This document shows, in pieces, positions 1-23,387 of a stretch of DNA of 64,000 nt. Under the pieces are notes generated by a model, which saw only the letters and a program-made list of their open reading frames with translations, did not search any database and was not told the origin of the DNA. The translations under genes were made by a program, and so were the position numbers. This stretch comes from Burkholderiaceae bacterium. GTDB lineage: Bacteria > Pseudomonadota > Gammaproteobacteria > Burkholderiales > Burkholderiaceae_B. Where the stretch lies: positions 62,001-126,000 of the forward strand of contig JANQYI010000012.1 of assembly GCA_030728985.1 (NCBI GenBank), given 5' to 3'. Numbering within the stretch: the first letter of the stretch is position 1; each line of letters opens with the position of its first letter.

Positions 1-3000
1 CGTGCCTTCAATCCAGACGCAAGCGGGATCGTTGTAGGCACGATTGCCATCTTGGCTCAGTTGCGACAATACATACAACTGTTGTTGCGCTTCGCTCAGG
101 GGATATTTCTTGTTTTGTGACACAGAGGCCGCGCTAAACATTTCTTTCAGGCGTGTGATGTTTGGAAGATTTTCCATGACTAGGCTAGTCGACACACCAA
201 AATCGACAAAGCATGCGATTTCATCGACACCCATCTCAACCAAGCGTTGAATCATCGGGACACAGGCCTCTGGCGAACCGATCAAAGCCCGAGTTGCGAC
301 ATAGCGCTCGTAGGCTTTGCGCACGACGTAGTCTTTGTCTTCCTGACTGGCCCGATTCACGTCTTTGAGGTGCGCTGGCAAGCTTTCCGCCATGCTTTGA
401 AAGAGTGACAGGCTCGACAACAGATAATTGCACATCGGTTCGCGAGCCTGTTCGACTGCGGTTTCGTTGTTTTCGCAGAGGTAGCTGTGCATCAATACGG
501 CGACATGTCCGACACTGGCAGGGTGCCCAGCCTCTGCAAGTGCTTGTCGATAAATAGTTAGATTTTTTTCAAGGTCTTCGAGCGATTGTCCAAGCAGGTT
601 GGTCAATACACCCAACCCCATCTCTCCCGCTTTGCGGTAGGTCTCAGGATTGGCAACGACTGTGAGCCAACCGGAAAGCTCTGGTTGCTTGGGTTGTGGG
701 TAGACGCGCAAAGAAACGTCTTTTCCATCGCCGCCCTTGAACGAGACGCTCTCGCCACGCCAGAGTCGACGCACGGTATCGATGCCTTCGAAAGTCAGTG
801 CACGGTTATTACTAAAATTATCAGGCGCCAAGGCGAAGTCATTGGGATGCCAGCCTGAAGCAAAACTGATCCCAGCGCGACCATTGGAAAGATTGTCAAC
901 GACTGCCCATTCCTCGGCCACTCTCAAGGGATGGTGCAGAGGCATGACAACACTACCGGCACGCAATTGAATGTGCTTTGTTTCGCGGGCAAGTGCTGCC
1001 GCGAGTAAGGAGGGGTTGGGAGAAAAGCCGCCAAATTTATCAAAATGTCGCTCAGGTAACCAAATCGCACTGAAGCCATTTTGGTCTGCGTAGCGTCCAC
1101 CTTGAATCATCAGGTCGTATTTGTCTTGAGAGAAGGCAGCGTCATAGTTGCCAAAGAAGTACAAGCCAAACTGCGCGCTTTTGTTGATCGCGCTGGTGGT
1201 GGCTGTCACGTTAGTGGAGGAGATTGCAGTGACAGCGGTCGCAATCGCGGCTTTGCTTGTATTAAGCGCCAGAGTAGGTTTGCTCTGACCGCTTTTTGGG
1301 GGGAAAAATCCCCCGTCACGCATTTCCTGAATCGTTTCTTTGATCGCCTGAATGACGAAATTGATATCCTCATCTGTATGTGCGGTCGAGAAAAAGCATG
1401 CGCGCCATTCCCAGATGTAGACGCCTTTATCAAGCAGGTGATAATAAAACACTTCGAGGTTACCCGGAAACTTAAAGCCGAACGTCGAGGCGAAGGTCAC
1501 GACTCTCAAGGCAATCTCTTCCTCTTGGAAGAAGGTATTGAGCGTCTGGGCGAATGCGGCAGTCCTCTGGGTTAGACGCTCTTGCAAGGCAGGACCTTCG
1601 GCCTTGAGGTGACGCAGCGTCGCTAGGCAAGCTGCCATGGAAAAAGGATGTTGACAGAAGGTGCCGCCGAAATAGGTCCGTTTAGCCGTCGGATAAGACG
1701 CGTCACCGTACTGCCACATACCGCCATCGATACCGTCTAAATAGCGTGCGTCACCAGCCACTGCACCGATCGGAGTGCCTCCACCTACAATTTTTCCATA
1801 GGTTGCGATATCTGCCTTGATATTAAAAAGACCCTGTACGCCAGCCGGATGTGCTCGAAAACCGCTGACCATTTCATCAAAAATCAGTGCGACATCGAGC
1901 GCTTTGGTAAGTGCGCGCAGCTCTCGCAGGAATTCAATCGGTTGTAGATCGAGACGTCTACTTTGGACAGGTTCGACCAAAACAGCGGCGAGTTCGTGCG
2001 CATATTGACGAATGGTGACGAGAGACTCAGGATTGCCATAATCCAAAACAATCACGTCTTTTGCCACGTTCTTTGGAATCCCTGCAGCGACAGGCTTAGA
2101 GATCAACTCTCCGTCAGGTCCGCGGAACGACTCGGCAAGCGTCCCATCGGAGTGTCCGTTATAGGCACGATCAAAAATAACGATTTTGTCACGACCTGTT
2201 GCCGCGCGAGCGAGGCGCAACGCAATCATGATGGCTTCCGTGCCGGAGTTGGTAAAGCCAACGCGCTCGTGACCGGTCAGTTCGCAAAAGAGCTGCGAAA
2301 TCTCCGCCATGTATTCAGTACGCGGACCTAGCTGAAAGCCACGCTTGATTTCTTCTTCGAGAATCCCTTTCATGTGATCGGGACGCGAGCCAAACAACAG
2401 GACGCCGAAACCCATTGTCAGGTCGACATATTCGTTTCCGTCCACATCGCGCATACGCGATCCTGTCGATTCGACGCCGGAAAGGGGATAGAGGATCTCT
2501 TTGGTGGAAAAGCGAAATCCAACACTCGCGCGGCTGTCAGCCAAGGTTGGGCGACATGCTTGAGCCAGTGCTTTTGATTTAGCGGTTTTCTGTTGGTATC
2601 GCTCCATCAACGCATTTTGATGCGCAGTTTGTTGCGCCGTCATGCCAGAAGCCGCGGATGGATTGATAGGTGTGTTCAAGGCGCGTAACGGTGAGGAGCG
2701 ATCCTCGACTGGTGAGGTAGCAGGCGAAGTTGCCACAGTGGTAGGAGGTGCCGGTGCGACAGCAGGGACAGGCATGGCTACCGGACTCTTGGTCGAACCG
2801 CTCAGCATGGCGAATTGCTGAGATATTAATTGTGACTGAGCAAAGATCAGTTGTTGCATGGCAGACAAATGATCTCCCGAAAACGTCGGAGCGCTCATGG
2901 GCTGCACTGCAGCGCTGAGTATCTGCATCGCAGGCGCTGCCTGTGGTGCGACCAACGGGGTGGGGGCAAGACCATAGGTCGAATTGGCTGCGATATAGCG

Positions 3001-6000
3001 CGCGATGGCATCGAGGTTTGTGATTTCTTCGAAAAACTGTCTGATTTCGAGTTTCACGCCAAAGTTATCATCGATGACGCTGACCCCTGAGACGAGGACC
3101 AGTGAGTCGGCGCCCATCTCAACGAGTTGAGCATTGACATTAATTTCGCTCGGATCAAGACGCAGCAAACTCGAAAAAAGCTCACACAGTTTGGTCAGCA
3201 AGACCTGATGTCGCTGTTCCGTATCAACCTGCTTTGCTGGGTTGTCAGCGTGGCTCAGGAAGGGGGTGGTCATAGTCAATTCGTTCTGGTTAATCCAATA
3301 GCGTTTTCGTTGAAAGGGGTACGTAGGTAAGGCAACGCGCGTTTGTTTGTTTCCGATTTCAAAGCCAGTCCAATTGATAGAGAGACCGTGGACATAGGCG
3401 CTTGCAACACTTGCAGACATGTTTGCGTTGTCATTTTTTTCACTCTCGATTGAGTTGAGCCACGTGAGATCGGCGTTCGCTTGTCGACCTAGTTTCGACA
3501 GGACATTGCCCGGTCCAATTTCAATGAAAAGGGTATGGCCTCGCTCAATCAGTGACTGAAGGGCGAGGGCATATTTGACGGACTCGCGACAATGTCGCGC
3601 CCAATACGCGCCATCAAGCTTATCTTCTTTGCCGATCGGTCCGCCATTCAAGGCGGACACGTAGTGCAGCTTGGGTGCAGATGCAGGGATATCTTGTGCA
3701 AAGCTCTGGTACTGCTCCAGCATAGGATCCATCAAAGGAGAATGGAATGCATGGGTCACGCTCAGCGGTACTGTTTGAATGCCCAAGATGCGAAGGCTCT
3801 CTAGCGCCTCCTGCAGATGTGCCTTGTCACCGGCCACGACCGTATTGCCCGAGCTATTGAGAACAGCGATGTCGAGCGTTTGTTCATAGCCGACGATAGC
3901 CTGACGAACAGTCTGTTCATCTGAAAAGACGGCGACCATGCCACCGGCGTTACCGAGCGTCTCCATGAGCTTGGCACGCTGCGCGACCAATTGAATCGCG
4001 TCTTCAAGTGTCAGGATCCCAGCGATACAGGCTGCGGCATACTCGCCGATGCTGTGTCCGAGTGCGGCTGTCGGCTCGATGCCAAAGGAGCGCCAAAGTT
4101 GAGCGAGGGCATACTGGACGGCAAACAGTGCGGGTTGAGCATGACTGGCGCGTTGCAACAAGAGGGCGTGATCATCATCCGTTTGATGCAACAGAGCAGT
4201 CAGAGGGACGCTGAGCCAAGATTCGAGCAGTGTCTCGCAGGCATCAATGGCTGTCTTGTAGACGGGTTGGGTGAGATATAAATCCCTGCCCATGCCACTG
4301 AAAACACCGCCTTGTCCTGTAAAAAGAAAAACCGGACGTAAGGTCTTGGCGGGAGCGGGAGGGCTTATTTTGACTGCAGGGTCGAATTTTCCTTGGCAAA
4401 CATCCGCCAACGCCGCCGTAAGAGCCAATTTATCTTGAGTCGTGATGGCGAGTCGATGCGCAAAATGACTCCGACCTGTATTCAAGTTGTAGCAGAGCTC
4501 AGCCAAAGAAATTTGCTTGCCCGCCGCACTCTGAAGGTACTGTCTGATTTGATTGCACAGTGCATCTAGGGCCGGTTTAGTTTTGGCCGAAAGGGCTAAC
4601 AAATGATACTGTTTATCGATTTGTGCGCTGAGTTCTTCGTGGTCTGTATGCGGGGATTCTTCGACGATAAGGTGTGCATTGCTCCCACTCGCTCCAAAAG
4701 CACTCACAGCTGCCAGTCTCGGGTGACGTTGATCGCGGCGCCACGCAAGTGTTTGCGCTACGGGTTCAAGGTTTAAACCCGTCCAATCGATACGTGTATT
4801 GGGTTGAGTAAGATGTAGCGTCGCAGGTAAAGACTCGTGCTTGAGTGCAAGCAAAAGCTTGATAAAGCCCATGACACCGGCCGCAGATTCAAGGTGTCCG
4901 ATGTTGGACTTGATCGAGCCGACTCTCAGGGGGGTCAGACGCCCAGGGACATTGCCCAGCACGATGCCAAGAGACTCTGCTTCGATGGGGTCGCCAAGCG
5001 AGGTCCCTGTACCATGTGCCTCAACATAATCGATATCTTTTGGATCAATCCCCGCTTTATCCAGCGTTCGGCGAATCAGTTGTTGTTGAGCAGCCCCATT
5101 GGGAACGGTAAAGCCACTACTGGTACCATCCTGATTGACGCTCGAAGCGCGAATCAAACCAAGAATCTGATCCCCTGCCGCGAGCGCATCTGAGTAGCGC
5201 TTGAGGACAACGATGCCGCAGCCTTCGCCACGCACGTATCCATCGGCGGCATTATCAAAGCTCTTGCAGCGACCATCCGGCGCCATCATGCCTGCAGCCG
5301 ACAATGTGACATAAAGCAAGGGTGAAAGCGTCAGATTGACACCGCCAGCAAGTGAAATATCGCATTCGCGTGCCCTTAAGGCCGTGCATGCAAGATGAAT
5401 CGCTGTCAAGGATGAGGAGCAAGCCGTATCAACGGCCATGCAGGGGCCTTGCAAACCCAGAACATAGGAGAGTCTACCGGCGCAGCCATTCAGAGGTGTG
5501 CCGGTGTTGAAGTAGGGGTTGACTTCGTCGTCGCGCGCATTGTTGGCTTGAAGCAAACCATAGTCGCTTGCAGTCACGCCGACAAATACACCGGTTTGCG
5601 TTCCTTTCAGTGCAGTGGCGGGAATGCCGGCATTCTCAAGCGCTTCCCAAGTGACTTCGAGTAAAATTCTTTGCTGCGGATCCATGCCTTCGGCTTCGCG
5701 CACGGAGATATTAAAAAAGTCAGGCTCGAATTGATCTGCGCCTTGGATAAACCCACCATGACGGGTGTAGGATTTTCCTGGTTTGCCAGGCTTTGGGTCG
5801 TAGTACTGATCGGCATTCCAGCGTTCGGCCGGCACTTTTTGAATCGCATCACGACCTTCACTGATCAGTTGCCACAATTCCTCAGGGTTGTTAGCCCCAG
5901 GCGCGCGACATCCTATGCCGACAACCGCGATCGATTCGCGTGCATCATGCTCAAGGCGATCAACTTTTTTTCGCAGCTTTGAAATCGCAGCGTACGCTTT

Positions 6001-6039
6001 TTGTAGGGGAGAGAGCGCCGAAGTCGTATTTTCGCTCAT
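1..6039 (-). CDS. Hybrid PKS-NRPS: KS-AT-ACP-aminotransferase-monooxygenase-C (3' end outside window)
   Basis: The reading frame is open from the ATG at 6039 to base 1 (2013 codons, no stop) and continues off the window. Domains by approximate residue: N-terminal docking helix 1-35; ketosynthase 37-460 with TACSSS near 205 and EAHGTGT; acyltransferase 570-870 with GHSIGEY and the HAFH signature typical of malonyl-CoA selection; ACP with MGADSL near 977; an Ala/Pro-rich linker; class III (GSA-type) aminotransferase 1170-1560 with the PLP lysine in TYGKIVGGG near 1415; luciferase-like monooxygenase 1620-1955 starting FGLYFFGNYD; then the first motif of an NRPS condensation domain (PLSEAQQQLYVLSQL). 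In microginin and puwainaphycin synthetases this order turns a beta-ketoacyl-ACP into a 3-amino-2-hydroxy acyl chain and passes it to an amino acid. The ATG overlaps the stop of the upstream PKS gene (ATGA), so the two are probably translationally coupled. Function is inferred from domain order; the adenylation domain and amino acid lie outside the window. Confidence 0.93.
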   Translation of the reverse strand, partial: MSENTTSALSPLQKAYAAISKLRKKVDRLEHDARESIAVVGIGCRAPGANNPEELWQLISEGRDAIQKVPAERWNADQYYDPKPGKPGKSYTRHGGFIQGADQFEPDFFNISVREAEGMDPQQRILLEVTWEALENAGIPATALKGTQTGVFVGVTASDYGLLQANNARDDEVNPYFNTGTPLNGCAGRLSYVLGLQGPCMAVDTACSSSLTAIHLACTALRARECDISLAGGVNLTLSPLLYVTLSAAGMMAPDGRCKSFDNAADGYVRGEGCGIVVLKRYSDALAAGDQILGLIRASSVNQDGTSSGFTVPNGAAQQQLIRRTLDKAGIDPKDIDYVEAHGTGTSLGDPIEAESLGIVLGNVPGRLTPLRVGSIKSNIGHLESAAGVMGFIKLLLALKHESLPATLHLTQPNTRIDWTGLNLEPVAQTLAWRRDQRHPRLAAVSAFGASGSNAHLIVEESPHTDHEELSAQIDKQYHLLALSAKTKPALDALCNQIRQYLQSAAGKQISLAELCYNLNTGRSHFAHRLAITTQDKLALTAALADVCQGKFDPAVKISPPAPAKTLRPVFLFTGQGGVFSGMGRDLYLTQPVYKTAIDACETLLESWLSVPLTALLHQTDDDHALLLQRASHAQPALFAVQYALAQLWRSFGIEPTAALGHSIGEYAAACIAGILTLEDAIQLVAQRAKLMETLGNAGGMVAVFSDEQTVRQAIVGYEQTLDIAVLNSSGNTVVAGDKAHLQEALESLRILGIQTVPLSVTHAFHSPLMDPMLEQYQSFAQDIPASAPKLHYVSALNGGPIGKEDKLDGAYWARHCRESVKYALALQSLIERGHTLFIEIGPGNVLSKLGRQANADLTWLNSIESEKNDNANMSASVASAYVHGLSINWTGFEIGNKQTRVALPTYPFQRKRYWINQNELTMTTPFLSHADNPAKQVDTEQRHQVLLTKLCELFSSLLRLDPSEINVNAQLVEMGADSLVLVSGVSVIDDNFGVKLEIRQFFEEITNLDAIARYIAANSTYGLAPTPLVAPQAAPAMQILSAAVQPMSAPTFSGDHLSAMQQLIFAQSQLISQQFAMLSGSTKSPVAMPVPAVAPAPPTTVATSPATSPVEDRSSPLRALNTPINPSAASGMTAQQTAHQNALMERYQQKTAKSKALAQACRPTLADSRASVGFRFSTKEILYPLSGVESTGSRMRDVDGNEYVDLTMGFGVLLFGSRPDHMKGILEEEIKRGFQLGPRTEYMAEISQLFCELTGHERVGFTNSGTEAIMIALRLARAATGRDKIVIFDRAYNGHSDGTLAESFRGPDGELISKPVAAGIPKNVAKDVIVLDYGNPESLVTIRQYAHELAAVLVEPVQSRRLDLQPIEFLRELRALTKALDVALIFDEMVSGFRAHPAGVQGLFNIKADIATYGKIVGGGTPIGAVAGDARYLDGIDGGMWQYGDASYPTAKRTYFGGTFCQHPFSMAACLATLRHLKAEGPALQERLTQRTAAFAQTLNTFFQEEEIALRVVTFASTFGFKFPGNLEVFYYHLLDKGVYIWEWRACFFSTAHTDEDINFVIQAIKETIQEMRDGGFFPPKSGQSKPTLALNTSKAAIATAVTAISSTNVTATTSAINKSAQFGLYFFGNYDAAFSQDKYDLMIQGGRYADQNGFSAIWLPERHFDKFGGFSPNPSLLAAALARETKHIQLRAGSVVMPLHHPLRVAEEWAVVDNLSNGRAGISFASGWHPNDFALAPDNFSNNRALTFEGIDTVRRLWRGESVSFKGGDGKDVSLRVYPQPKQPELSGWLTVVANPETYRKAGEMGLGVLTNLLGQSLEDLEKNLTIYRQALAEAGHPASVGHVAVLMHSYLCENNETAVEQAREPMCNYLLSSLSLFQSMAESLPAHLKDVNRASQEDKDYVVRKAYERYVATRALIGSPEACVPMIQRLVEMGVDEIACFVDFGVSTSLVMENLPNITRLKEMFSAASVSQNKKYPLSEAQQQLYVLSQLSQDGNRAYNDPACVWIEGT

Positions 6040-9000
6040 CGTGGCGTGTCCGTCTGGTTCAAAGCATCTAATTCTTGATCGATCAATAATACTAACTCAT
6101 CGTCTGAGAGCTCTTCAATCTTAGTTGGTGAGGCCGTTGAGCGCTTGTTTTTTGAAACGGCCTGGGTCTCAACAGCAGATGAACGCTCTTGTGTGAAAAT
6201 TTTCGTCAGTAAATGCGTGGTGAGTGTGTCAATCGTGGGGTAATCGAAAACAATCGAGGGGGGGAGGGTTTTGGCAACCAGATCTTCGAGAGACAGCCTG
6301 AAGTCAACCGATGAAATAGAATCCATGCCCATATCAAAAAAACCACGTGTGCGGTCGGGTAGTTGACCCGATGGAAAATGCAGCACCACCGCAAGAGCAT
6401 GCTGGAGCTTATGAGCGAGAAACTCTGGTTGCTCACTTTCGAGAATATCTGTTAATTCGACATGCAGAGAGGAGGGTGCAGTGGCGGCAATCGCCCCTTG
6501 AGGTTGAGAGGCCGTCGAGGCAGCACGTTTGGTGGTCAGCATATTAAAGAGGGGCTGAGGACAACGTGTTTCGAAGAGGTGACTGATTCGGCTCCAATCA
6601 GCCTGAACAACTGCAATTTGCGCGAGGTTGCTAAAAAATAGATGCGACATCGCCTCTTGCGTTAATGTGGGATCCAAGGGTGAAAATCCGTTTGAGGTGG
6701 CAAGCGCCAAAGACTTTTCGTCAACCATGCCACCCACTGACCAAGGACCCCAGTTAATACATACGGCTTTTAGACCTTGTTGTTGTCGATACTCTGATAA
6801 TCCATTTAAAAACTGATTGGCGGCCGTGTAATGTGACAGACCATGGGTGCCGATCAGACCCGCAATCGAACCATAAAGCACAAAACAGTCAAGATCGAGT
6901 GTCTGAGTCAATGTATGTAAATACCAGGCGCCAAGCGCCTTGGGTAACATGACGGCGTTCATAGCTTCTTGCGACATCTCTACCAAGGCATCATGACGTA
7001 TGGCACCGGCCGCATGAATGATGCCTCGTAAAGGCATCTTATCCGTACTCAATCGATTAAGGAGCTGAGCAAGCTGAGCCACATGAGTGATGTCAACAGC
7101 TTCACTTTGGATCAAACATCCCGTTAAACGAAGCCCCTCAATTTCCTGACGCACGTGTTCGGTCGGAGGTGTCCTGCTGATCAGTACGATTTTTCCTGCC
7201 CCTTGCCTAGCCAAGGTTTTCGCAGCTTGCAAGCCGAGAGCACCGTGACCACCCGTAATGAGATAGGTTGCATCGGCGCGCGCGGTACGTTTTGGTGAGT
7301 TCGACTTTACGTCGGATAAGGCCAATATCTCAGCAGACGCAGATTTGAGTCTTTTGACGAGACCCCTCGCGTGTTGATCTTGATCGATAAAAAGTGTTGC
7401 CACTTCAGCTTGATCAGCTAAAAGCGTTTCTGCTGCAAGTCGAAACTGTTGAATAGTAGGTTTCGTGTGTTTGCCTGACGAAAAACTCATGATGCCGCCT
7501 CGCAAGGCGGGATACTCAAGAAAAATAGAGCGCAGCAAGCCTTCTGCGGCAAAGGCAAAGGGTGCAGTCTCTGAGATCGTCGTCGCTAACGCACTTTGTC
7601 CAACACTGACGAGCCATAGCTTGGGTGGCGTTGGAGATATGGCGAGTTTTTGCGCGAGCTTCACCAGGTAACCGCAGAACTCAGTGAGTTTGAGCGGCTG
7701 TTCAATCAAGGTGTGTTGAGCGGGCCAGGACACCATCACATCTGTCGGGCGTCCCGTCTCATCAGACTGACTGAGAAGTGCCTCAGAACTTGGATAGGTG
7801 GATACAGTTGCACCCATGGACTTTAGCGCATCTGCAAACTCTGAGAGTCCATGATCGATGCAAAAGATGCGAGCAGAGTGAAAAGTACGTGATGCAGCTT
7901 CAGATGAGAAAGCGATGTCCTGCTCGACCCATTCAGTAATGAAGGCATTGGCCGCCAAAGCGGGATCGGTCAAGGTGATAGATGATTTTTCTCTATTCGA
8001 TTCGTAGACGGGTGAGCGGCTCCAGTAACGTTGACGGTCAAAAGCATAGAGTGGCAAGGTGATGCGTCGTTGCCCCTTCGGTCTCTCTGCATGTTGCCAG
8101 GCGAGATCTTGATCGGTGATGCACACTTCGGGCATTGGCTTGCCATCAACAAACGCTTTTAAGCCTTGAACCAATTCTTTCGCGCTGGATCCGGCGAGAG
8201 CGATTCGATGTTCAAAGCGGGTGCGTGTGGTGAGCGCAGACAGGCAAAAATTGTTCAGTGCATGCTCAGGCGTATTCTCGAGAGCTTCGATATAACGCTG
8301 AGCGAGTTGTCGCAAACTGGTGATTGAGCGGGCGGATAGGCAAAGTATGAAGGGCTTTACTGCTGATGGATCAGGGTCTTGCTTTGACGCGAGTGTATGC
8401 AACTCAGGCGTCGTCAAAGGGGGCTCCGCAATCACAATATGCGCATTGCTCCCGCTAAATCCAAAGGAGCTCAGCCCTGCATAGCGGGGCTTTTCACGTT
8501 TTGGCCACGCTGTCAGTGCTGTGAGTACTTCGATGGCAGGCTCACCCCACATAATGTGTGGATTCGGAGAGTGGAAGTGCAGATTTCCGGGGATTGCCTC
8601 ATGTTGCAAGGAAAGAATGATTTTCAATAATCCACCCAGACCTGCGACCGGCTCCATATGGCCGATATTTGATTTTGCCGACCCCACTTTAAGTGCTTGG
8701 GGTCTATTCGCTCCGAGTGTTTGTGAAAGTGCCTCGACTTCGATGGGGTCGCCAAGGCTGGTGCCCGTTCCATGGGCTTCTACATAGTCAATTTCTTGAC
8801 GTTGTAAGCCAGCATCCGCAAGGGCTTCCTGAATGACCGCTTGTTGGGCTCGGCCGCTCGGCGCGGCCAGTCCGCTGGTTTTTCCATCTTGATTGGTGGC
8901 TGAGCCTTTAATGAGTGCGAGGATACGATCTCCATCGCGCAGTGCATCGGCTTCGCGCTTGAGCAATACGAAGGCGCACCCTTCGCTTCTTACATAGCCA

Positions 9001-9830
9001 TTGGCTGCCGCGTCAAAGGTTCGGCATTTTCCGTCTGGAGAGATCGCTTGAAGTTTTGAAAAAGCGATGTGTACTTCGGGTGACAAAATCAAATTGACTC
9101 CGCCTACCAAGGCCATGTCAGATTCTTTGGCCCGCAAACTTCTTGTCGCGAGGTGTAAGGCGACCAGAGAGGATGAACATGCTGTGTCTAATGTAATACA
9201 AGGACCCTGCAAGCCAAGCGTGTAGGAAATTCGGCCTGCCGCTGTGCTGGAAGTGCTACCTGTCAAAGAGTAGGCATCGATACTGTCGAGATTGCCGGAG
9301 TGACGATGATGGCGAGAGTAGTCGTCGCCAGACATCCCCACATAAACCGCTGTCCTTGTATTCTTGAGAGAGTCGGGCGCAATACCCGCGTGCTCGATAG
9401 CCTCCCAGCTCAATTCGAGCAAGAGTCTTTGCTGCGGATCGAGCGCATTGGCTTCTTTTGGCGAGATCCCGAAAAAACTTGCATCGAAAGCATCGACTTC
9501 GATATCCAGAAAGCCCGCTTTTGAACAATACATCCGGCCTGGCGCGCTAGGATCTTCTGACAAGTAATCAGCGGCAATCCATCGTGAAGGAGGCACCTCA
9601 GAAATCGCATCACGTCCTGATTTCAAAAGATCCCAGTAAAGATCCGGACTATTCGCACCACCCGGAAAGCGACAGGACATGCCAATCACCGCAATGGATT
9701 CTTTGGCGCGCAAGTTGGCATTTTCTTCTAAAAGTTGACGGATCGTGAGACTTGCCTTTTCCAGTGCGGCGCGAAAAGCCGCTTCACGCTCATTGAGCTC
9801 TGGTGTGGGCTTAAGACTCGCGTCAGACAT
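6036..9830 (-). CDS. Type I PKS module lacking an acyltransferase: KS-KR-ACP (1264 aa)
   Basis: An N-terminal coiled docking segment (residues 10-45) precedes a ketosynthase (50-470) with TACSSS near 216, EAHGTGT and KSNIGH. The KS-to-AT linker (about 495-560) then runs straight into the post-AT linker LPLYAFDRQRYW near 597. The roughly 300-residue AT expected between them is absent, so malonyl must come from another AT, either the cis ATs of the neighbouring proteins or a trans AT. A ketoreductase follows (nucleotide motif TGGHGALG near 862; catalytic Ser in YGSIAG and Tyr in HYTAAN near 1001), then an ACP with DMGMDSI near 1168 and an acidic C-terminal docking tail. With no DH or ER, this module should leave a beta-hydroxyl. 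It sits between the loading PKS and the aminotransferase PKS and overlaps the next gene by 4 bases. Confidence 0.94.
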   Translation of the reverse strand: MSDASLKPTPELNEREAAFRAALEKASLTIRQLLEENANLRAKESIAVIGMSCRFPGGANSPDLYWDLLKSGRDAISEVPPSRWIAADYLSEDPSAPGRMYCSKAGFLDIEVDAFDASFFGISPKEANALDPQQRLLLELSWEAIEHAGIAPDSLKNTRTAVYVGMSGDDYSRHHRHSGNLDSIDAYSLTGSTSSTAAGRISYTLGLQGPCITLDTACSSSLVALHLATRSLRAKESDMALVGGVNLILSPEVHIAFSKLQAISPDGKCRTFDAAANGYVRSEGCAFVLLKREADALRDGDRILALIKGSATNQDGKTSGLAAPSGRAQQAVIQEALADAGLQRQEIDYVEAHGTGTSLGDPIEVEALSQTLGANRPQALKVGSAKSNIGHMEPVAGLGGLLKIILSLQHEAIPGNLHFHSPNPHIMWGEPAIEVLTALTAWPKREKPRYAGLSSFGFSGSNAHIVIAEPPLTTPELHTLASKQDPDPSAVKPFILCLSARSITSLRQLAQRYIEALENTPEHALNNFCLSALTTRTRFEHRIALAGSSAKELVQGLKAFVDGKPMPEVCITDQDLAWQHAERPKGQRRITLPLYAFDRQRYWSRSPVYESNREKSSITLTDPALAANAFITEWVEQDIAFSSEAASRTFHSARIFCIDHGLSEFADALKSMGATVSTYPSSEALLSQSDETGRPTDVMVSWPAQHTLIEQPLKLTEFCGYLVKLAQKLAISPTPPKLWLVSVGQSALATTISETAPFAFAAEGLLRSIFLEYPALRGGIMSFSSGKHTKPTIQQFRLAAETLLADQAEVATLFIDQDQHARGLVKRLKSASAEILALSDVKSNSPKRTARADATYLITGGHGALGLQAAKTLARQGAGKIVLISRTPPTEHVRQEIEGLRLTGCLIQSEAVDITHVAQLAQLLNRLSTDKMPLRGIIHAAGAIRHDALVEMSQEAMNAVMLPKALGAWYLHTLTQTLDLDCFVLYGSIAGLIGTHGLSHYTAANQFLNGLSEYRQQQGLKAVCINWGPWSVGGMVDEKSLALATSNGFSPLDPTLTQEAMSHLFFSNLAQIAVVQADWSRISHLFETRCPQPLFNMLTTKRAASTASQPQGAIAATAPSSLHVELTDILESEQPEFLAHKLQHALAVVLHFPSGQLPDRTRGFFDMGMDSISSVDFRLSLEDLVAKTLPPSIVFDYPTIDTLTTHLLTKIFTQERSSAVETQAVSKNKRSTASPTKIEELSDDELVLLIDQELDALNQTDTPR

Positions 9831-9833
9831 GAT

Positions 9834-10076
9834 TCATTTTCGACTATTCAACAGTCGTAGTCGTGAGAATCGAAAACTGCATGCGTTCAAGAGGAGCATG
9901 ATCGGCTTCGAAGACATAGCTATCGCAGAGTGAAAAATCGGCTCTAAGTGTGGGCAACAGAATTGGCGGTAGGCCGAAGCACTTCCACCGGTAAAGGGCA
10001 GGAAAAATAGTCTGATCTTTGCAGTAGGGTTTCGAGCAGGGCAAGTTACACAGCTATTAAATTTTGTGGATATCAC
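9834..10076 (-). pseudogene. Remnant of a type II thioesterase gene with an internal deletion and frameshift
   Basis: The frame opening at GTG 10076 (overlapping the upstream PKS stop as GTGA) encodes 80 residues. Residues 22-38 (RLFFLPFTGGSASAYRQ) match the start of type II thioesterases of the GrsT/SrfAD family. Beyond about base 9963 this frame stops resembling the family, but a second minus-strand frame in the same DNA reads LLPTLRADFSLCDSYVFE, which is the family segment normally about 130 residues further on. The GxSxG nucleophile region and the C-terminal Asp/His region are missing. I infer a deletion near 9963 that also shifted the frame, plus 3' truncation. An intact enzyme is about 240-250 residues and removes misprimed acyl groups from carrier proteins. 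The surviving frame still links the two PKS genes, overlapping one stop and ending three bases before the next ATG. Confidence 0.8.
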
Positions 10077-13000
10077 GGTTTAAGCAAGAGTTCTAAATCA
10101 TCAAGCATGGACTGGGCAGATTGCGCCACAGAGGCGGACGTCGCTGAAGCAGATGGGTCTTGTCCCTTATCACCAGCGCGGTTTGGCAGTTGCTTTTCCA
10201 CAAGTTCCCAAACGAACTGCACGAGTTCTGCTGCATTTGGATAGTTAAATACCAGACTGACGGGTAGGCGTTGACCAAGGCCTTTGCCGATTAGGTCGGC
10301 GAGCTGAACTGCCATCAGAGAGTCTAGTCCAAGATCGGTAAACGCTTGATTGGGTAAGAGTGTCGCAGTCGATGCCAAACCAAAAAGCTGTCTGATTTTG
10401 CGGTGTACGTATTGCTCAACAAGCTTTTGTTGTTGATCAAAGGGGGCGTGCTTGACCTCGTCCAACAGTTCGGTGCTTGATTTGGAGCCAGTCGGGCTGG
10501 AGCTTGACGCTTTCTCAGCACGGACCAATTGACTCAGGAAATGCGAGGAAGCTTCACTGGAAACCAGATATTGATCCCAGTCGCATTCGACAACGGACAG
10601 CTGAGGTTCGGTCGAGGCAATACATAAACTAAGCGCCTCAAGGCCAAGTTCAGGAGTGATCGGGGCAAAGCCTTGACGTTTGAGGTGCTGAGTGATTGCA
10701 ACATCGGACTGCGCCATCCCGACTTCTGCCCAGGGACCCCAATTAATACTGGTGGCCTTGAGTCCGAGTTGATGACGCCTTTGGGCAACGCCATCTAGAT
10801 AGGCGTTGGCTGCGGCATAGTTGGCTTGACCTCGATTACCTAAAATCGATGCGGCCGAGGAAAAGAGAACAAAGAAGTCAAGCGGCCGGGCTTGCGTCAG
10901 CGTATGGAGATTCCAAGCGCCTCGCGCTTTGCCAGAAAATACTTTCTCAAAACTTTCGACCGAAAGGTCTTCAATCAGATGATCATCGAGTACCCCGGCG
11001 CAATGCACGATGCCTGTAATTTCAGGAAGTTGTTGCTGTGCAGTCAGGATAACCTGCGACAGTGCATGGAGATCAGCGGTATCAACGAAATGTTGAGTCA
11101 CATGAATCCCTTGTTCTTTCCACGCGTCAATACGTTGCTGCGCTTCAGGTTTGCCTGATTTGCGACTCAACAGTAATAAATGATCTGCGCCTTGATCGAT
11201 CAACCATTGAGCTGTGGCTAATCCCAGACCGCCAGTCGCACCGGTTAGAAGGTAGGTTTGACCTTTGTGGATCGTAGCGTGCGAGGTGCTGATGGCTGTA
11301 GCAGCAGTCTTTGACAGGCGTGCGACATAGCGTTGATCTGAGCGCCATGCGCTGCGAGACTCTTGTGTCGCAGAGGTCAAAGATCGAAGCACTTGCTTGG
11401 CGGTATCCAGTTCTGATGAATCGTGGGGATCAAGATCGATACAGACGCAGGAAAGCTCAGGACGCTCGAGCATGGTCGACAAGCCAAGGCCCCAAAGCGG
11501 AGTTTGTTCAACACGCAATGCATGCTGATCATTTGCCACAGAGTATGCACCTTGAGTAAAGAGCCAGAGATGCGTGTCGATAGACAGATTGTCTTTGATG
11601 AGTGCCTGAATCAGACCCAGAGGTGTCAGCGCGCTGAGTTGTTGAGACGACGCCTCATCCTGAAGTTTTTCGTCGAGTCCCCAGAGGTAAAGAATTCCGT
11701 TGAGGGTCTTCGTTTTTCCGGCGGACTGCTGAATTAATTTTTCTAAGCCCTTCTGATCGCTTGGGTCAACATATTCAAACACATTCGTTTCCGTATGCGC
11801 TGCGACAGAAGGGCGTGCACCTGGCAGGACGACGATGCAAGTCTGTTTCTGAGCTTTCAAGGATTTGGCAATTTCTTGACCGATAGTTTGATGAGGCGCA
11901 AAAATCAACCAGCTCGTCTCAGACTCACTTAAAACGCTGGATGTTCCTGGAGAAGCATCGAGCTCCCAGTTCACTTGGTGTAAGAGTTTGGCGGATTGCG
12001 CGCGCAAACCTGATTTAAAAGCCGCAGGATCCGCTTGACGTGCTTGCAGGCCAAGCACTTGCAAGACGACATTGCCCATGGCATCACACAGCGCGACATC
12101 CGCGATGGCTTGCTCGGTGCCACCTGATTCTCTCAAGGCAAGTCTGGCCCACAGCGGCCCGCTGGGAATAGGCTGAGTCAAACGAATGCGTTCGATCGAA
12201 AAGGGCAACCAAGTGCGTCTCGCTTCGAGTGCGCCAGAAGCGAGCAATAGCGTAAAACATGCGTCAATCAAGCCAGGATGTAATTGCTCGGCAGGTAATC
12301 CTCCTAGTGACTTGGGAGGACTGATTTCTCCAATCGCCTCGCCTTTGGCGCGACGAATCGCTTTGATCCAACGATAACTTTCGCCGAGCGCGAAATGTCG
12401 CTCAGAGAGAGCGTCAAAAAACTGTGTGACATCCACGGACTCCAGGCAGCGTGCACTAATCGCTGCGTAGTCCAGCTTGGCAAGCGTCTCTTGTTCAATC
12501 CTATTGACCGATGCTTCAGCATGTATCAAAATTTCAACAGATTCATTCGACGGGATCGGTTGATTAAAACTCAGTAGTCGCGCAAACCAGTTTTTATTTG
12601 CATCGGGCTCGAGTACAACCTGCACGGTTCTGCTTTCATCTTCTTGCAGCACCAGGGGCGCAGGGAAATAGATATTCTCAATTTCGCATGGAGAGTCTGG
12701 ACTCACGCGTCGCGCGGCATCAAGCAGCATTGCGATGTGACACGCACCCGAGGCCACCACAGTGTGATTGATCAGATGATCTTTCAAGAAAGGCAAATGG
12801 TCGACGTTAAAGTCTCTCTGAAAAACCGTTGCGGACACTGTCGGCAGCGATAGGCGCTCTCCTAGCAAGGCCAGCTTTGCTGGGAATTGAGTCCCTTTGC
12901 GCGCATCTTTCGCCGGCGCTTCAAGCCAGTAAGGTGTGTGCTGAAAGGGGTAGGTTGGCAATGGCAGACGTCTGCGTTGGTAGCCTTGGTCGAAGCCTTT

Positions 13001-16000
13001 CCAGTCGATATTCGAACGCAGGGAAAGTTGTGCCAAGCTATGCAGGAGCGTATTCCAGTCCGAACTTCCTTGCTTGAGGCTAGGAAGCCAGAGAATCCCA
13101 TCCGTGATTGATTGCATGCCCAAGCTGATCAAGGTTGGTTTGGGACCAATCTCGATCATGACATCGCAGCCTTGTTCGGACATTGTTTCAATGCCCATTT
13201 TGAAGTTCACAGCTTGTCGGACATGTTGACGCCAGTATTGCGCCATCGTGACTTCTTCGCTCGCAAGCGTGCCCGTCAGATTGGAGATGAGCGGAATCTT
13301 GGGTAACTGAAGCTCAACGTTTTCGAAAGTCTCAGCAAAGGCATCAAGAATGGGAGTCATCAATGGAGAGTGAAACGCATGCGACGTGGCTAGACGCTGT
13401 GTTCTGATTTTTTGCTGTTGACAGTAGTCGATGATGCCTATAATTGTGCTTGCGTCACCGGAAATGACTGTACTCAATGGCCCATTCATTGCGGCGATCG
13501 AGACGGACTTTTCATGACCTTTCAAAAGTTTGCGTACGTCTGGCTCCGCAGCTTGAATCATCCACATTTCACCGCCTGACGGCAAAGCTTGCATCAGGCG
13601 AGCGCGCTGTGCGACGATTTTCACGCCATCCTCGAGCGTGAAGACTCCGGCAATGCAAGCTGCTGCAAACTCACCGAGGCTGTGACCGATAACGCAATCG
13701 GGCTGGACGCCCCAGCTTTGCCACAGTCTAGCTAAGGAATAGCCGATTGAAAACAGAGCTGGCTGCGCATAGCCCGTTTGATTCAGACGGGTGACATGGC
13801 TCTCTGAGGACTCCGCAAACATCACCTCAAGTAAGGAAATATCAAGCAAAGGAGTAAACAGTTGAGCGCAACGCTCGAGCTCTGCACGGAAAACAGGTTG
13901 AGTCTCAAATAACTCACGTCCCATGGCTAAATACTGTGCACCTTGACCTGTGAATAAAAAGCCGATTTTGGGTCGTTTTTTACCGGCCACAGCTCCACTA
14001 AACACGGAGGACGTGGAGTCATTATTGAGATGCGCTTGCAGGCTCCTAGCGAAATTGCTAGCGTCAGTACCTGCGACGCTGAGTCGGTGGTCAAATAATT
14101 TTCGACCGGTATTCGCGGTAAAACAGACATTATTCATATCGGCATCAGGCTTGCTATTGAGATAAGCCAGATAACGTTGCGTCAATTCACCCAATGCTTT
14201 TTCGTTGCGCGCACTCAATGTCAGAATATTTTGCGGACGAACGAAGGTGTTCTCGAGAGGGGGTAAGTCAGGTGCTTGTTCCAGAACGGCGTGAGCGTTC
14301 GTGCCACCAATGCCGAGCGAGTTGATGCCGGCGCGCCGCGGAGCACTTTGCTTTTTCCAAGGGACGGCAGTGGTGTTGATGAAAAAGGGACTTTGTTCGA
14401 GTCCGAGAGCGGGGTTTGGTGTGTTGAAATTCAGTAAAGGGGGGATCAGTGCATGATGCAAAGAAAGGGCTGTTTTAATAAAGCCAGCCGTTCCAGAGGT
14501 AATTTGCAAGTGGCCAACGTTTGTTTTGACAGAACCTAGAGCACAGTATCCGATCGCGTCGGTTTGTGTCCTAAAGACTTGCGTCAGACCGTTGACTTCA
14601 ATTGGGTCGCCGATCTCTGTGCCCGTGCCGTGTGCTTCAATCATGCCGATCGTGTCGGGAGAAACGCCCGCCATCGCGATCGCTTCGGCGACGACGCTGG
14701 CTTGTCCCTCGCTGCTAGGCGCCATGTAGCCGACCTTGATGCCACCGTCGTTATTGACAGCCGAGCCTTTAACTACAGCGTAAATATGATCACCGTCACG
14801 GATCGCATCGTCCAAGCGTTTAAGCAAAATCGCACCGACGCCACTACCAAAAATAGTGCCAGCGGCATTGGCATCGAAGGAACGGACGTGACCGTCGGGA
14901 GATACAATCATGCCGGGTTGATAAAGATGACCGGCATGTCCGGGAGACTGCACAGAGGCGCCGCCCGCCATAAACAAATCGGTCTCGCCAGAGAGCAATG
15001 ACTGGCAAGCCATATGAACGGTCACTAGGCCTGTCGAACAGGCCGTTTGTACATTGATGCTCGGACCACCGAGATTCAATTTGTATGAAACGCGAGTCGT
15101 CAGATAATCCTTGTCGTTGGCGACCATCATCATGAAGCCACCCATAGAATCAAGCGTAGTGACATCCATGCCATCATTGGGATCAATCTGATGCCGGTTG
15201 GGCATAACGTTATTCATGAGGTAGGTGTTCATGGCTGCGCCGGCATAGACACCCGTCACGCCAGGATAGGTGGTGGGTTCATAGCCCGCGACTTCGAAAG
15301 CCTCCCATGCGCACTCTAAAAAGAGACGATGCTGCGGATCCATTAACTCTGCATCGCGAGCGGTATAGCCAAAAAACTCCGCGTCAAAGCCTTTCGCGTC
15401 ATTCAGCAGGGGGCTGGCTTTGACATAGTCGTCTGAGGCGTATACTGAAGTTTCGAAACCACTATCTTTAAGCTCTTTGTCGCTAAAGAACGTGATGGAC
15501 TCCACGCCTTGCGCCAAATTTTTCCAGAAAGTATCGAGGTCATCGGCGCCGGGAAAGCGACACGACATACCAATGACGGCGATATCCTGACTACGATGCT
15601 GTTGCTGGCTGCGTGCCTGCGCTCTGGCGACGCCTTTTTCCGAGGGTGATTCAGAATCGTCCTTACCACTTAATTGCTGCACCAACGCTTCGATGCTTGG
15701 GTATTTGAATAAGTCCACCAAAGTCAGATTGAAGCCAAGCGTTTCATTCAGACGCTCGAGAGCTTGCACAAGCGAGATGGAATCTCCGCCCAACTCGAAA
15801 AAGTTGTCCTGCAGACTGATATGCTCGATGGACAACACGTCCTGCCAGATGCTAGCGATTTGTTGCTCGATTTGAGATCCCGGTTGCGCGCCACGAGATA
15901 TGTTGACTTCATGCAGACCATGCTGAGTCATCAGCGCTTCGATGCGCTGAGTGATTTCTTCAAATTGACCTGCTTGAAATGCCTGAATTAATCTTTTGTG

Positions 16001-17674
16001 TTGAATCTTGCCGATCGCAGTCTTGGGTATGACCTCTTTGTCGACAGGAATAAAAAAGTGCGGTTTGATACTCACTCGGCGGGTGAGGTGGGACTGTATT
16101 TGTTTTATTAAACCGACGAGCGCGTCATCATTGTGCGCCGCGTCCGCATGAAAAAAGAGCGCTAGCCTGAGGCGGTCACTACCTGGCGCAAACACAGCGC
16201 AAGCCGCCGCGTAAGAGGGTGTGACACCGTCGACTTGTTCTGCAGCCGCTTCGATTTCACTATTGGAAAGGTTGACGCCATTGACAATGATGCCAAGTTC
16301 GGAGCGTCCGATTAAAACCAGTTCGCCTTCAGAAATAAATCCAGCATCTCCCGTGTCGAACCAGCCATCACCAACAAAGGCTTCGTTCGCTTTCGGATTT
16401 TTGTAATACCCGGGCATGACAGCGTCGCCCTTAATTTGAAAACGTCCAACCGTGTTTTCATCAAGAATTTGATTATTTTCGTCCACGATGCGGATGGACA
16501 TGCCGGGAATAACGGGCCCTAGGCTCGCGAAAGAAATGCTGGAGGTCTCGGTCGGCTCAACCCGGGTCACGACACCGGTCATCGCATGACGATCGATATG
16601 ATGAAACTGCATGGCGTGACCGACTGTTGGCAAGTGATACGTCACACCCGAGCAAGCTTCAGCCATGCCAAAGGCTGAGATAAGCGCATCGGATCGCAGC
16701 CCGAAAGGCGATGCCGCAGCCAAGAATTCGTTGACCGTTGAGAAGGAAATGAGTTCTCCCGCACTCAAAAGTCCTTTGACGCAAGAGAGGTCCCAATGAC
16801 CGTTCTCGACCGTTTTGAGGGCTTTGCTGATCAGGGCAAAGGCAAAATTCGGTGCCCAGCCATGCGTCACGCGATAGGTGTCGATCAGATCGAGCCACCG
16901 CAAAGGTTTGGCCAGAACATATTCTTTGGGTGCGTAGACTAAAGCGCTTCCGGCGATGATAGGACTGAGATGGTATGCGGAGATGTTGCCGATGTGGTCA
17001 AAAGGCAGCCAACTCAAAATGACATCGCTGGCCTCATTTCGACAGAGGATATTGGAGCCTATGCCACGCGACAACATGTTGCGATGGGTCAGTGTGACAG
17101 CTTTTGATAGGCCTGTACTGCCTGAGGACAGTGTATAAAACGCTGTATCGTCCGGCTGAGCGTGATGAATGATCTCTGTAGGTCGATGCGTGCTGAGCTG
17201 CTCGATGCAGACAATATTCGCACGCGCAAGCGCAGGGGCGAAGCCAGAGGCTTTGATCGCAGGACTTAGGCTCTGCGTTGTGCAAATCAGAGGTTCGTCC
17301 AACAAACACCAAAGATGGAGCAGTTGCTCCAAGGAGCGACTTTCGATGTCGTAGCTGACAGGAATCGGAACAATGACCGGTTCAAAGCCACCGAATAAAC
17401 ATCCCCAAAAAGTCGGAAGAATATCTTCACTTGCAGCGAGTTGCAGGATGACTTTGTCTTTGGGGCGGAGTCCCGCTGCAATGAGTCCAGCGCATACACT
17501 CTTGGCGTGGGTAATCAACGAACCATAACTATGCGAGTACTCAACCCCGTTTTGATCAAGATAGATGATTGAAGTCAGAGGGTCAGCTGCGAGGAGAACG
17601 CCCGGTAACGTTTGAAGACTTTCCAATATTGTTGGAAGAGGGGCACCTTGAAGAAATGCTGCTTTGGCTGTCAT
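10073..17674 (-). CDS. Chain-initiating PKS: acyl ligase-ACP-KS-AT-DH-KR-ACP (2533 aa)
   Basis: This is the first protein of the assembly line. Residues 20-580 are an acyl-AMP/CoA ligase (AMP motif LSSGSTG near 185, WLPFDHIGNI) of the kind that activates fatty acids in lipopeptide synthesis. A carrier protein follows (FFELGGDSISL near 630), then a KS (693-1120, TACSTG near 878, EAHGTGT), an AT (1240-1530, FTGQGAQ, GHSLGEF near 1333, HAFH near 1433, malonyl type), a dehydratase (about 1620-1830), a ketoreductase (TGATGGLG near 2145, Tyr in NYAAAN near 2287) and an ACP (LGLDSL near 2450). The DH keeps the His (KDHLIN) and Asp (GLIDACF) positions, but its HxxxGxxxxP box reads HLINHTVVAS. There is no ER, so an enoyl product is expected. 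The starter fatty acid cannot be read from the sequence. No methyltransferase or thioesterase domain is present. Confidence 0.95.
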   Translation of the reverse strand: MTAKAAFLQGAPLPTILESLQTLPGVLLAADPLTSIIYLDQNGVEYSHSYGSLITHAKSVCAGLIAAGLRPKDKVILQLAASEDILPTFWGCLFGGFEPVIVPIPVSYDIESRSLEQLLHLWCLLDEPLICTTQSLSPAIKASGFAPALARANIVCIEQLSTHRPTEIIHHAQPDDTAFYTLSSGSTGLSKAVTLTHRNMLSRGIGSNILCRNEASDVILSWLPFDHIGNISAYHLSPIIAGSALVYAPKEYVLAKPLRWLDLIDTYRVTHGWAPNFAFALISKALKTVENGHWDLSCVKGLLSAGELISFSTVNEFLAAASPFGLRSDALISAFGMAEACSGVTYHLPTVGHAMQFHHIDRHAMTGVVTRVEPTETSSISFASLGPVIPGMSIRIVDENNQILDENTVGRFQIKGDAVMPGYYKNPKANEAFVGDGWFDTGDAGFISEGELVLIGRSELGIIVNGVNLSNSEIEAAAEQVDGVTPSYAAACAVFAPGSDRLRLALFFHADAAHNDDALVGLIKQIQSHLTRRVSIKPHFFIPVDKEVIPKTAIGKIQHKRLIQAFQAGQFEEITQRIEALMTQHGLHEVNISRGAQPGSQIEQQIASIWQDVLSIEHISLQDNFFELGGDSISLVQALERLNETLGFNLTLVDLFKYPSIEALVQQLSGKDDSESPSEKGVARAQARSQQQHRSQDIAVIGMSCRFPGADDLDTFWKNLAQGVESITFFSDKELKDSGFETSVYASDDYVKASPLLNDAKGFDAEFFGYTARDAELMDPQHRLFLECAWEAFEVAGYEPTTYPGVTGVYAGAAMNTYLMNNVMPNRHQIDPNDGMDVTTLDSMGGFMMMVANDKDYLTTRVSYKLNLGGPSINVQTACSTGLVTVHMACQSLLSGETDLFMAGGASVQSPGHAGHLYQPGMIVSPDGHVRSFDANAAGTIFGSGVGAILLKRLDDAIRDGDHIYAVVKGSAVNNDGGIKVGYMAPSSEGQASVVAEAIAMAGVSPDTIGMIEAHGTGTEIGDPIEVNGLTQVFRTQTDAIGYCALGSVKTNVGHLQITSGTAGFIKTALSLHHALIPPLLNFNTPNPALGLEQSPFFINTTAVPWKKQSAPRRAGINSLGIGGTNAHAVLEQAPDLPPLENTFVRPQNILTLSARNEKALGELTQRYLAYLNSKPDADMNNVCFTANTGRKLFDHRLSVAGTDASNFARSLQAHLNNDSTSSVFSGAVAGKKRPKIGFLFTGQGAQYLAMGRELFETQPVFRAELERCAQLFTPLLDISLLEVMFAESSESHVTRLNQTGYAQPALFSIGYSLARLWQSWGVQPDCVIGHSLGEFAAACIAGVFTLEDGVKIVAQRARLMQALPSGGEMWMIQAAEPDVRKLLKGHEKSVSIAAMNGPLSTVISGDASTIIGIIDYCQQQKIRTQRLATSHAFHSPLMTPILDAFAETFENVELQLPKIPLISNLTGTLASEEVTMAQYWRQHVRQAVNFKMGIETMSEQGCDVMIEIGPKPTLISLGMQSITDGILWLPSLKQGSSDWNTLLHSLAQLSLRSNIDWKGFDQGYQRRRLPLPTYPFQHTPYWLEAPAKDARKGTQFPAKLALLGERLSLPTVSATVFQRDFNVDHLPFLKDHLINHTVVASGACHIAMLLDAARRVSPDSPCEIENIYFPAPLVLQEDESRTVQVVLEPDANKNWFARLLSFNQPIPSNESVEILIHAEASVNRIEQETLAKLDYAAISARCLESVDVTQFFDALSERHFALGESYRWIKAIRRAKGEAIGEISPPKSLGGLPAEQLHPGLIDACFTLLLASGALEARRTWLPFSIERIRLTQPIPSGPLWARLALRESGGTEQAIADVALCDAMGNVVLQVLGLQARQADPAAFKSGLRAQSAKLLHQVNWELDASPGTSSVLSESETSWLIFAPHQTIGQEIAKSLKAQKQTCIVVLPGARPSVAAHTETNVFEYVDPSDQKGLEKLIQQSAGKTKTLNGILYLWGLDEKLQDEASSQQLSALTPLGLIQALIKDNLSIDTHLWLFTQGAYSVANDQHALRVEQTPLWGLGLSTMLERPELSCVCIDLDPHDSSELDTAKQVLRSLTSATQESRSAWRSDQRYVARLSKTAATAISTSHATIHKGQTYLLTGATGGLGLATAQWLIDQGADHLLLLSRKSGKPEAQQRIDAWKEQGIHVTQHFVDTADLHALSQVILTAQQQLPEITGIVHCAGVLDDHLIEDLSVESFEKVFSGKARGAWNLHTLTQARPLDFFVLFSSAASILGNRGQANYAAANAYLDGVAQRRHQLGLKATSINWGPWAEVGMAQSDVAITQHLKRQGFAPITPELGLEALSLCIASTEPQLSVVECDWDQYLVSSEASSHFLSQLVRAEKASSSSPTGSKSSTELLDEVKHAPFDQQQKLVEQYVHRKIRQLFGLASTATLLPNQAFTDLGLDSLMAVQLADLIGKGLGQRLPVSLVFNYPNAAELVQFVWELVEKQLPNRAGDKGQDPSASATSASVAQSAQSMLDDLELLLKP

Positions 17675-21504: not shown

Positions 21505-21658
21505 ATCAATGCTAAGGGCAGCTGTAGACTGCTAAGTGATTTCAGTTAGAGGGTTGTAACGGATGCCGACACTCGAATCTAGCTCTAATACCCGAATCAA
21601 GTGGTCGTTGTGAGTATTTGTGAGGTTTTGCCAAGTGTTTGAAATAGGATTTGAGAAT

Positions 21659-21702
21659 GTCGTGTTTAATAGATTGTCGTGTTTGATAGCTACTAAGCTA
21701 TC
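21659..21702. promoter_or_regulatory. 17-bp-spaced direct repeat plus palindrome in a divergent intergenic region
   Basis: GTCGTGTTTAATAG (21659-21672) is repeated as GTCGTGTTTGATAG (21676-21689), 13 of 14 identical with a period of 17. The second copy runs into a perfect inverted repeat, GATAGCT-ACTA-AGCTATC (21685-21702). The site lies 52 bases before the start of the secreted protein at 21754 and about 155 bases from the divergent solute-binding gene. It could be an operator or an RNA hairpin in the 5' leader. No T-run follows, so it is not an intrinsic terminator. Confidence 0.4.
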
Positions 21703-23382: not shown

Positions 23383-23387
23383 GCACC

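Follow-up and report, generated by a model that had tools for sequence, protein, structure and literature searches.

A probable truncated microsclerodermin-type PKS/NRPS assembly line in a betaproteobacterial genome of Sheuella's genus

The DNA analyzed here, called the window throughout, is a stretch of 64,000 nucleotides from a Burkholderiaceae bacterium (GenBank assembly GCA_030728985.1, here G000; contig JANQYI010000012.1, here C12) covering C12:62001-126000, so that a contig coordinate equals the window coordinate plus 62000. It carries three genes of a polyketide synthase/nonribosomal peptide synthetase (PKS/NRPS) line, encoding Proteins A, B and C, as a single run on the minus strand with all three frames open (Table 1). 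Pfam confirms the domain order given in a preliminary description made from the sequence, which placed the locus at 1-17674 and expected NRPS genes beyond its left edge. Extension of the contig to the left revealed them: the C domain of Protein C is completed, the whole protein of 3069 aa ending C-A-PCP, and together with Proteins D and E the extension supplies four NRPS modules, with four A domains, and one more PKS module. While the PKS part of the locus stands as described, its true extent is larger, as the assembly line spans C12:33514-79674 (window -28486 to 17674) and conserved companion genes lie to its right at window 17794-22611, possibly up to 27857. Overall, the window probably holds the opening half of a truncated line of the microsclerodermin type that starts from an aromatic acid and whose losses arose by deletion.

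Table 1 Features of the assembly line and its surroundings, in window coordinates unless prefixed with C12
Feature	Position	Strand	Domains, content or basis
Protein A, 2533 aa	10073..17674	-	AMP-binding-ACP-KS-AT-DH-KR-ACP (Pfam)
Loader adenylation domain of Protein A, McyG-like (aromatic/keto-acid type)	15929..17629	-	phmmer vs PDB
Type II thioesterase relic	9895..10073	-	In the A-B gap; first 38 codons and a later piece in another frame
Protein B, 1264 aa	6036..9830	-	KS-KR-ACP, no AT (Pfam)
Protein C, first 2013 of 3069 aa	1..6039	-	KS-AT-ACP-AmT-MOX-start of C domain (Pfam)
Class III aminotransferase domain of Protein C	1402..2475	-	PF00202; AmT-MOX tree
Luciferase-like monooxygenase domain of Protein C	220..1122	-	PF00296; putative 2-hydroxylation
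Protein D, 1531 aa	C12:54238-58833		KS-AT-KR-ACP
Genes in the D-E gap	C12:46502-53824	+	Phosphopantetheinyl transferase, 460-aa protein, two DUF697 proteins, ParA-like ATPase, ABC exporter, SPFH/Band 7 protein
Protein E, 4135 aa	C12:33514-45921		C-A-nMT-PCP-C-A-PCP-E-C-A-PCP, no thioesterase
Four genes: permease-like, two solute-binding-protein-like, one methyltransferase	17794..21504	-	Pfam; permease match below cut-off
Methyltransferase gene among these four	20018-20707		Pfam
285-aa protein, signal-peptide-like start	21754..22611	+	No Pfam family; also conserved immediately before A in Sheuella and G002
Carbamoyltransferase, possible tailoring enzyme	23379..25226	+	PF02543, PF16861; linked to the line by position only
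GDSL/SGNH-hydrolase-like protein	25147..26499	+	Own motif reading; no Pfam family
Amidohydrolase, candidate MscE counterpart (pyrrolidone formation)	26694..27857	+	PF04909

Within Protein C, Pfam recovers the KS-AT-ACP-AmT-MOX-C block, with its aminotransferase (AmT) and monooxygenase (MOX) domains, that is known as the microginin/puwainaphycin arrangement. The ATs that show the GHSxG motif in the alignment carry HAFH, which is usually read as malonyl-specific. The KR of module B keeps its catalytic residues, and the 5-hydroxy group proposed in the preliminary description is therefore plausible, even though module B itself lacks an AT. The 6,7 double bond of the same proposal is uncertain: the DH of A still has both His and Asp, yet Ser stands in place of the proline of HxxxGxxxxP in all five A orthologues aligned, and the window copy has lost the glycine too. 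Orthologues of A in three genomes of the same genus (G001-G003) are 55-57% identical to it.

The loader at the start of Protein A was compared with PDB entries using phmmer. It scored 398.7 bits with 6ulw, which we take to be a keto-acid-selecting module, and 369.8 bits with McyG (4r0m), as against 140.2 bits with 3pbk (fatty acyl adenylate ligase), the best ligase named fatty-acyl. The corresponding loader of Sheuella amnicola resembles it (McyG 367, 3pbk 149 bits). For two control loaders, taken from the AmT-MOX loci L021 and L022 of cyanobacteria, the reverse holds, with 161/169 bits for McyG, 236/297 bits for 3pbk and 626/693 bits for 7r7g, an entry with the PDB name 'Polyketide synthase' that we assume to be a fatty-acyl ligase. 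Once these control loaders and the Sheuella loader had been scored, a fatty-acyl loader was rejected, and with it the earlier assignment of the domain to the fatty-acyl-AMP-ligase type. Unlike the Methylobacter SV96 line, the window line has no KR between the loader and its ACP, and for this reason the aromatic class fits best among the three starter classes in PMC13252402. An aromatic starter of the phenylacetate or phenylpropanoid type thus appears more likely than a fatty acyl one. Given a phenylacetyl-type starter and three extensions, the predicted acid would be 3-amino-2,5-dihydroxy-8-aryl-oct-6-enoic acid, and both the loader class and the three PKS extensions with AmT-MOX fit an aryl β-amino acid line of the nostophycin type.

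For the peptide part, A-domain codes were read by alignment. The code of Protein C is DASKVGEVGK, which we take to be Asn-like, and all eight relatives read have DATK[IV]GEVGK. The KR of Protein D lacks the catalytic Tyr in each of the nine D orthologues that have a KR, with His (7) or Ser (2) in its place; in the same alignment all 12 KRs of the A, B and F types retain this Tyr, F being the last protein of related lines. The ketone of D's ketide is thus probably retained. In Protein E, the first code, DILQLGLIWK, belongs to the module with the N-methyltransferase and the third is DILQFGLVWK, both presumably Gly codes, while the module with the second code, DVGVIGEIMK, is followed by an epimerization domain. 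In place of HHxxxDG, the second C domain of E has HHIISDE, a reading shared with Sheuella and G001 and hence no peculiarity of the window. Taken together, the domains and codes suggest the order Asn, a ketide with a dead KR, N-methyl-Gly, a D-residue and Gly.

A 500-aa AmT-MOX query matches Sheuella amnicola NBD-18 (G003; Alcaligenaceae, Betaproteobacteria) at 67%; the match at C5:132741-134264 stands at 68%. The genome of Sheuella is placed in the same genus as that of the window, bearing out the betaproteobacterial host read from the sequence. An endosymbiont host such as Mycoavidus, considered on grounds of genome size and GC, was discarded in view of this placement. The host assembly (2.35 Mb, 44 contigs, 86.7% complete) contains no 16S rRNA. 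Sheuella belongs to the freshwater GKS98 cluster (PMC10535154). Among 28 other same-genus genomes listed, eight match AmT-MOX at 1e-60; six carry the block and two (G011, G013) match in the monooxygenase part only, at 41%; a further 119 genomes without a match stayed off the list. The public labels of two metagenome-assembled genomes (MAGs), 'Candidatus Methylopumilus' (L013) and 'Bordetella parapertussis' (L019), look wrong, as both correspond by contig number and position to genomes placed in Sheuella's genus.

Homologous lines, read by domain annotation of fetched stretches, are found in Sheuella amnicola, two Methylobacter genomes, an Acidimicrobiia MAG (G010) and other MAGs. The order is the same in Sheuella and the MAGs G001, G002 and G009. 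It also agrees in G004, G008 and G030 over the length of the stretches fetched, except that in G004 and G030 E does not come after D. Methylobacter SV96 (G005) and G007 have their E and F upstream of A. G010 has a whole line, with no KR visible in D. In an AmT-MOX tree of 18 rows, 11 sequences of the window's line family separate from seven cyanobacterial/myxobacterial ones with support of 100/99 under a midpoint root.

The last protein, F, is present in six relatives (G001, G003, G005, G007, G009 and G010). In Sheuella it consists of C-A-PCP-KS-AT-KR-ACP-TE behind an N-terminal docking domain, and the A code of F is that of Gly in all three read. Its thioesterase (TE) was detected by Pfam in G003 and by motif or match in G001, G005 and G009; in G010 it is represented by a C-terminal alignment of only 29-33%, and the G007 stretch ends before it.

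These lines vary in further ways. In Sheuella, a KR-ACP-KS-AT stretch of module 2 is absent (L096:12408-14921, L096:14938 onward) and in the AT that is left the expected GHSxG is replaced by GNDIG. In G010, two modules, KS-KR-ACP and KS-ACP-AmT-MOX, have no AT, while others do carry one (C9:60541-78812; L133, L134). The E protein of G007 seems to be without a third A domain, its carrier lying about 475 aa after the last C (C13:48588-59273; L138, L139). Sheuella also contains a second PKS run (C2:14076-36969; L113, L114) that ends KS-AT-ACP-AmT with no monooxygenase in the same protein, and two amidohydrolase genes lie nearby.

Compared with these relatives, the host genome has lost three parts of the line. 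The AT of B is excised in frame, with the junction after residue 577 (8099/8100): in an alignment of B to three AT-bearing orthologues, the KS-side linker runs straight into the post-AT linker. No fourth PKS AT was found in the assembly, the others being in A, C and D only, next to a stand-alone AT on contig C33 that is FabD by size. The second part is a type II thioesterase (TEII), whose gene is intact between A and B in G001, G002 and G003 (PF00975 in two of the three scanned). The gap between A and B in the window retains a relic of it, detected by tblastn at 61% over 38 aa, with E 9e-13 against the 450-base gap region and 2e-9 against 126 kb. Its first 38 codons are 57-61% identical to the relatives, and the three intact genes are 78-89% identical among themselves.

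The third part is F. A PF00668 search of the genome gave five domains, all in C and E and none further, and a PF00975 search gave only two weak matches, both partial and located elsewhere in small open frames, of which one passed the cut-off. A TE relic of 62 codons lies at C12:33404-33219, about 110 bp behind the stop of E, and matches four TE queries with E 3e-12, 1e-15, 3e-17 and 2e-9, the best value on reversed sequence being 0.065. Its identity amounts to 41-51% with the TEs of G001, G003 and G005 (44-51% among themselves), 35% with the TE of G009 and 32% with that of G010; on 63 columns only, these identities suggest a recent loss. The preliminary description had named a broken continuation, or one lacking NRPS modules, as the outcome that would speak against it: the modules are present, but the final protein is absent and a relic stands where it should be.

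Synthesis on this line would begin with adenylation and loading of an aromatic acid by the loader of Protein A, and three malonyl extensions would give the 3-amino-2,5-dihydroxy-8-aryl-oct-6-enoyl chain. Addition of Asn and one malonyl unit would follow, the retained ketone offering a possible closure to a pyrrolidone, and Protein E would then add N-methylglycine, a D-configured residue and Gly. In relatives, F would contribute Gly and a malonyl unit with reduction, yielding γ-amino-β-hydroxybutyric acid (GABOB), and its thioesterase would release the product, presumably with ring closure on the β-amine. Since F, TEII and the AT of B appear to have been deleted in the host genome, the line would be a truncated derivative that makes no full macrocycle with the enzymes in the assembly. 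It follows the microsclerodermin family up to the Gly module but lacks the terminal Gly-malonyl-KR-TE part, and we therefore do not file it as a member.

Several observations weigh against this assignment. Its kinship to the microsclerodermin (msc) cluster is read from module order and codes, not from msc protein sequences, and the starter from the loader class, not from pocket residues. The best NCBIfam models for the loader are acyl-CoA and fatty-acyl-AMP ligases, those shown all being below the cut-off. The second code of E was not assigned to Trp, the residue found at this position in microsclerodermins, and no Trp halogenase, Fe(II)/2-oxoglutarate oxygenase or MFS transporter of the msc set was found in a Pfam scan that covered part of the neighboring genes; a methyltransferase gene, a type that this set also contains, does lie at 20018-20707. 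Finally, a displaced F or TEII may lie outside the 86.7% complete assembly, and in G005 and G007 E and F do sit elsewhere relative to A-D.

All five large open reading frames (A-E) are intact over a total of 12,532 codons, so the line is either newly disabled or working with an AT in trans and another release route. The latter is a tentative option, held to be less likely than not: the ACP of B would be malonylated by FabD or a neighboring AT, release would need no cis thioesterase and the product would be a shorter linear or differently closed peptide, with the same family assignment. The intact frames speak for present activity, and so do the stand-alone AT, the recurrence of AT losses in Sheuella (GNDIG) and G010 (two AT-less modules), and an exporter between D and E that lies just above the cut-off of the NCBIfam cyclic peptide export family (287.6 vs 286.2 bits). 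In most comparisons, identities to outgroups are also near those of relatives, although B reaches 0.421 against G005 where relatives reach 0.454-0.470; it is not clearly lower against G009 and G007. Against activity stands the loss of both thioesterases, for which no substitute was identified. Moreover, E keeps an acidic tail resembling those of the E proteins in Sheuella and G009, where F comes next; the tail gives the impression of a partner lost not long ago.

The preliminary interpretation, a 3-amino-2-hydroxy fatty acyl lipopeptide of the microginin/puwainaphycin kind, was partly upheld, in its domain order, NRPS genes and host. As a whole we consider it improbable. It can draw on the AmT-MOX block, on the sub-threshold NCBIfam matches of the loader and on the ralstonins, which PMC9659194 describes as containing such an acid in a betaproteobacterium. 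'Fatty acyl' and 'lipopeptide' are nevertheless not supported, because the loader is McyG-like, at 370-399 bits on McyG and 6ulw versus 140 on 3pbk, with the order reversed in the two cyanobacterial controls; the AmT-MOX tree likewise sets the window apart. Assembly or binning artefacts as the source of the missing AT, TEII and F are very improbable, for although the genome is fragmented and incomplete and paralogous PKS modules can collapse, collapse is unlikely because no two of the five genes share an exact repeat of more than 19 bp and the longest stretch near the AT junction repeated elsewhere in 126 kb is 14 bp, it would not produce partial relics, one of them frame-broken, and contig C12 runs 33 kb further beyond E.

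The truncated microsclerodermin-type line is accompanied by genes with counterparts in its relatives. Homologues of the four genes at 17794..21504 lie beside the line in G002 (four of four) and in the fetched stretch of Sheuella (three of four). The amidohydrolase is a candidate for the MscE role: its homologues directly follow F in G001 (62%) and Methylobacter G005 (66%) and lie just before E in G007 (55%). A homologue of the GDSL/SGNH-hydrolase-like protein follows F and the amidohydrolase in G001, with 40% over 419 aa; PF13472 matched this homologue only at E 0.08, and the predicted structure of the 450-aa protein, with a mean pLDDT of 33, was unusable. Among the genes between D and E, the 460-aa protein belongs to no Pfam family and has, by our own reading, a lipoprotein-like start.

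The lines of G002, G005 and G007 also have the ABC-SPFH pair of the D-E gap next to them, each time with DUF697, and the pair is present in L017 as well. The ABC-SPFH-DUF697 set is seen at C12:46502-53824, G002 C122:12767-19337, G005 C2:800205-803756 and G007 C13:93880-97617, and a ParA-like ATPase accompanies it in two of these four genomes. The set may be an exporter with membrane-organizing parts, a putative function. More speculatively, the line would be rebuilt and not dead, with malonyl supplied in trans, TE-free release and export by the ABC-SPFH-DUF697-ParA set, giving a shorter linear aryl-β-amino peptide; we hold this to be doubtful.

Microsclerodermins are antifungal peptides that were obtained first from marine sponges and later from soil myxobacteria. 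Homologous microsclerodermin-type lines now appear in a freshwater Alcaligenaceae genus, in methanotrophs and in an Acidimicrobiia MAG. Since one owner of such a line, Sheuella amnicola NBD-18, is a named and sequenced type strain, a search for the product becomes practical. Its genus also displays steps of mega-synthase change, from an absent module stretch and a disabled AT in Sheuella to an excised AT and a lost terminal protein in the window's genome, where relics are still readable.

Among known systems, microginin and puwainaphycin share the KS-AT-ACP-AmT-MOX-C block with the window line and differ in the peptide, and the cyanobacterial AmT-MOX loci L021 and L022 carry a loader of another type. 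Nostophycin contains 3-amino-2,5-dihydroxy-8-phenyloctanoic acid. According to PMC4219810, puwainaphycin has a fatty-acyl ligase loader, unlike the window line. By the account in PMC13252402, nostophycin and tychonamide share a ligase-type aromatic-acid loader, PKS modules and late amination/oxygenation with it; this likeness is one of starter logic, the peptide part is different and the five cyanobacterial loci compared have an AmT-MOX that belongs to a separate clade. The preliminary description knew of no betaproteobacterial product with exactly this set and missed the ralstonins (ralsolamycin) of Ralstonia solanacearum, a betaproteobacterium, in which PMC9659194 reports 3-amino-2-hydroxyoctadecanoic acid. 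These peptides, likened here by description only, share the 3-amino-2-hydroxy acid but are lipodepsipeptides with a long fatty acid and 11 amino acids.

By module and residue order, the nearest systems are not occidiofungin and the burkholdines, as first proposed, but microsclerodermin and pedein (msc; Jahnella, Sorangium). No AmT-MOX match at 1e-125 turned up in the 108 genomes searched from the family of one Polyangium, in a run that had no positive control. On betaproteobacterial or freshwater microsclerodermin lines, the literature consulted gives an antiSMASH label with 21% similarity for Variovorax sp. S12S4 (PMC10946135); this view of the literature is partial and does not establish that nothing else is published. 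The microsclerodermin ring has the order β-amino acid-pyrrolidone (Pyrr)-sarcosine (Sar)-Trp-Gly-GABOB, with GABOB acylating the β-amine (PMC5132153), and the msc set comprises Asn incorporation, an AmT/MOX module, the amidohydrolase MscE, the type II thioesterase MscJ and the NRPS/PKS protein MscI (PMC6163206 section 5.2). The window line differs in a loader fused to the first PKS module, three PKS extensions, the loss of the terminal protein, TEII and one module's AT, a scanned neighborhood free of halogenase and oxygenase genes, and a host in Sheuella's genus. It shares AmT-MOX before the first C-A, Asn followed by a ketide, an N-methylating module, an epimerizing module, Gly and a nearby amidohydrolase, and its relatives alone share the terminal NRPS/PKS protein with TE and the type II TE as well.

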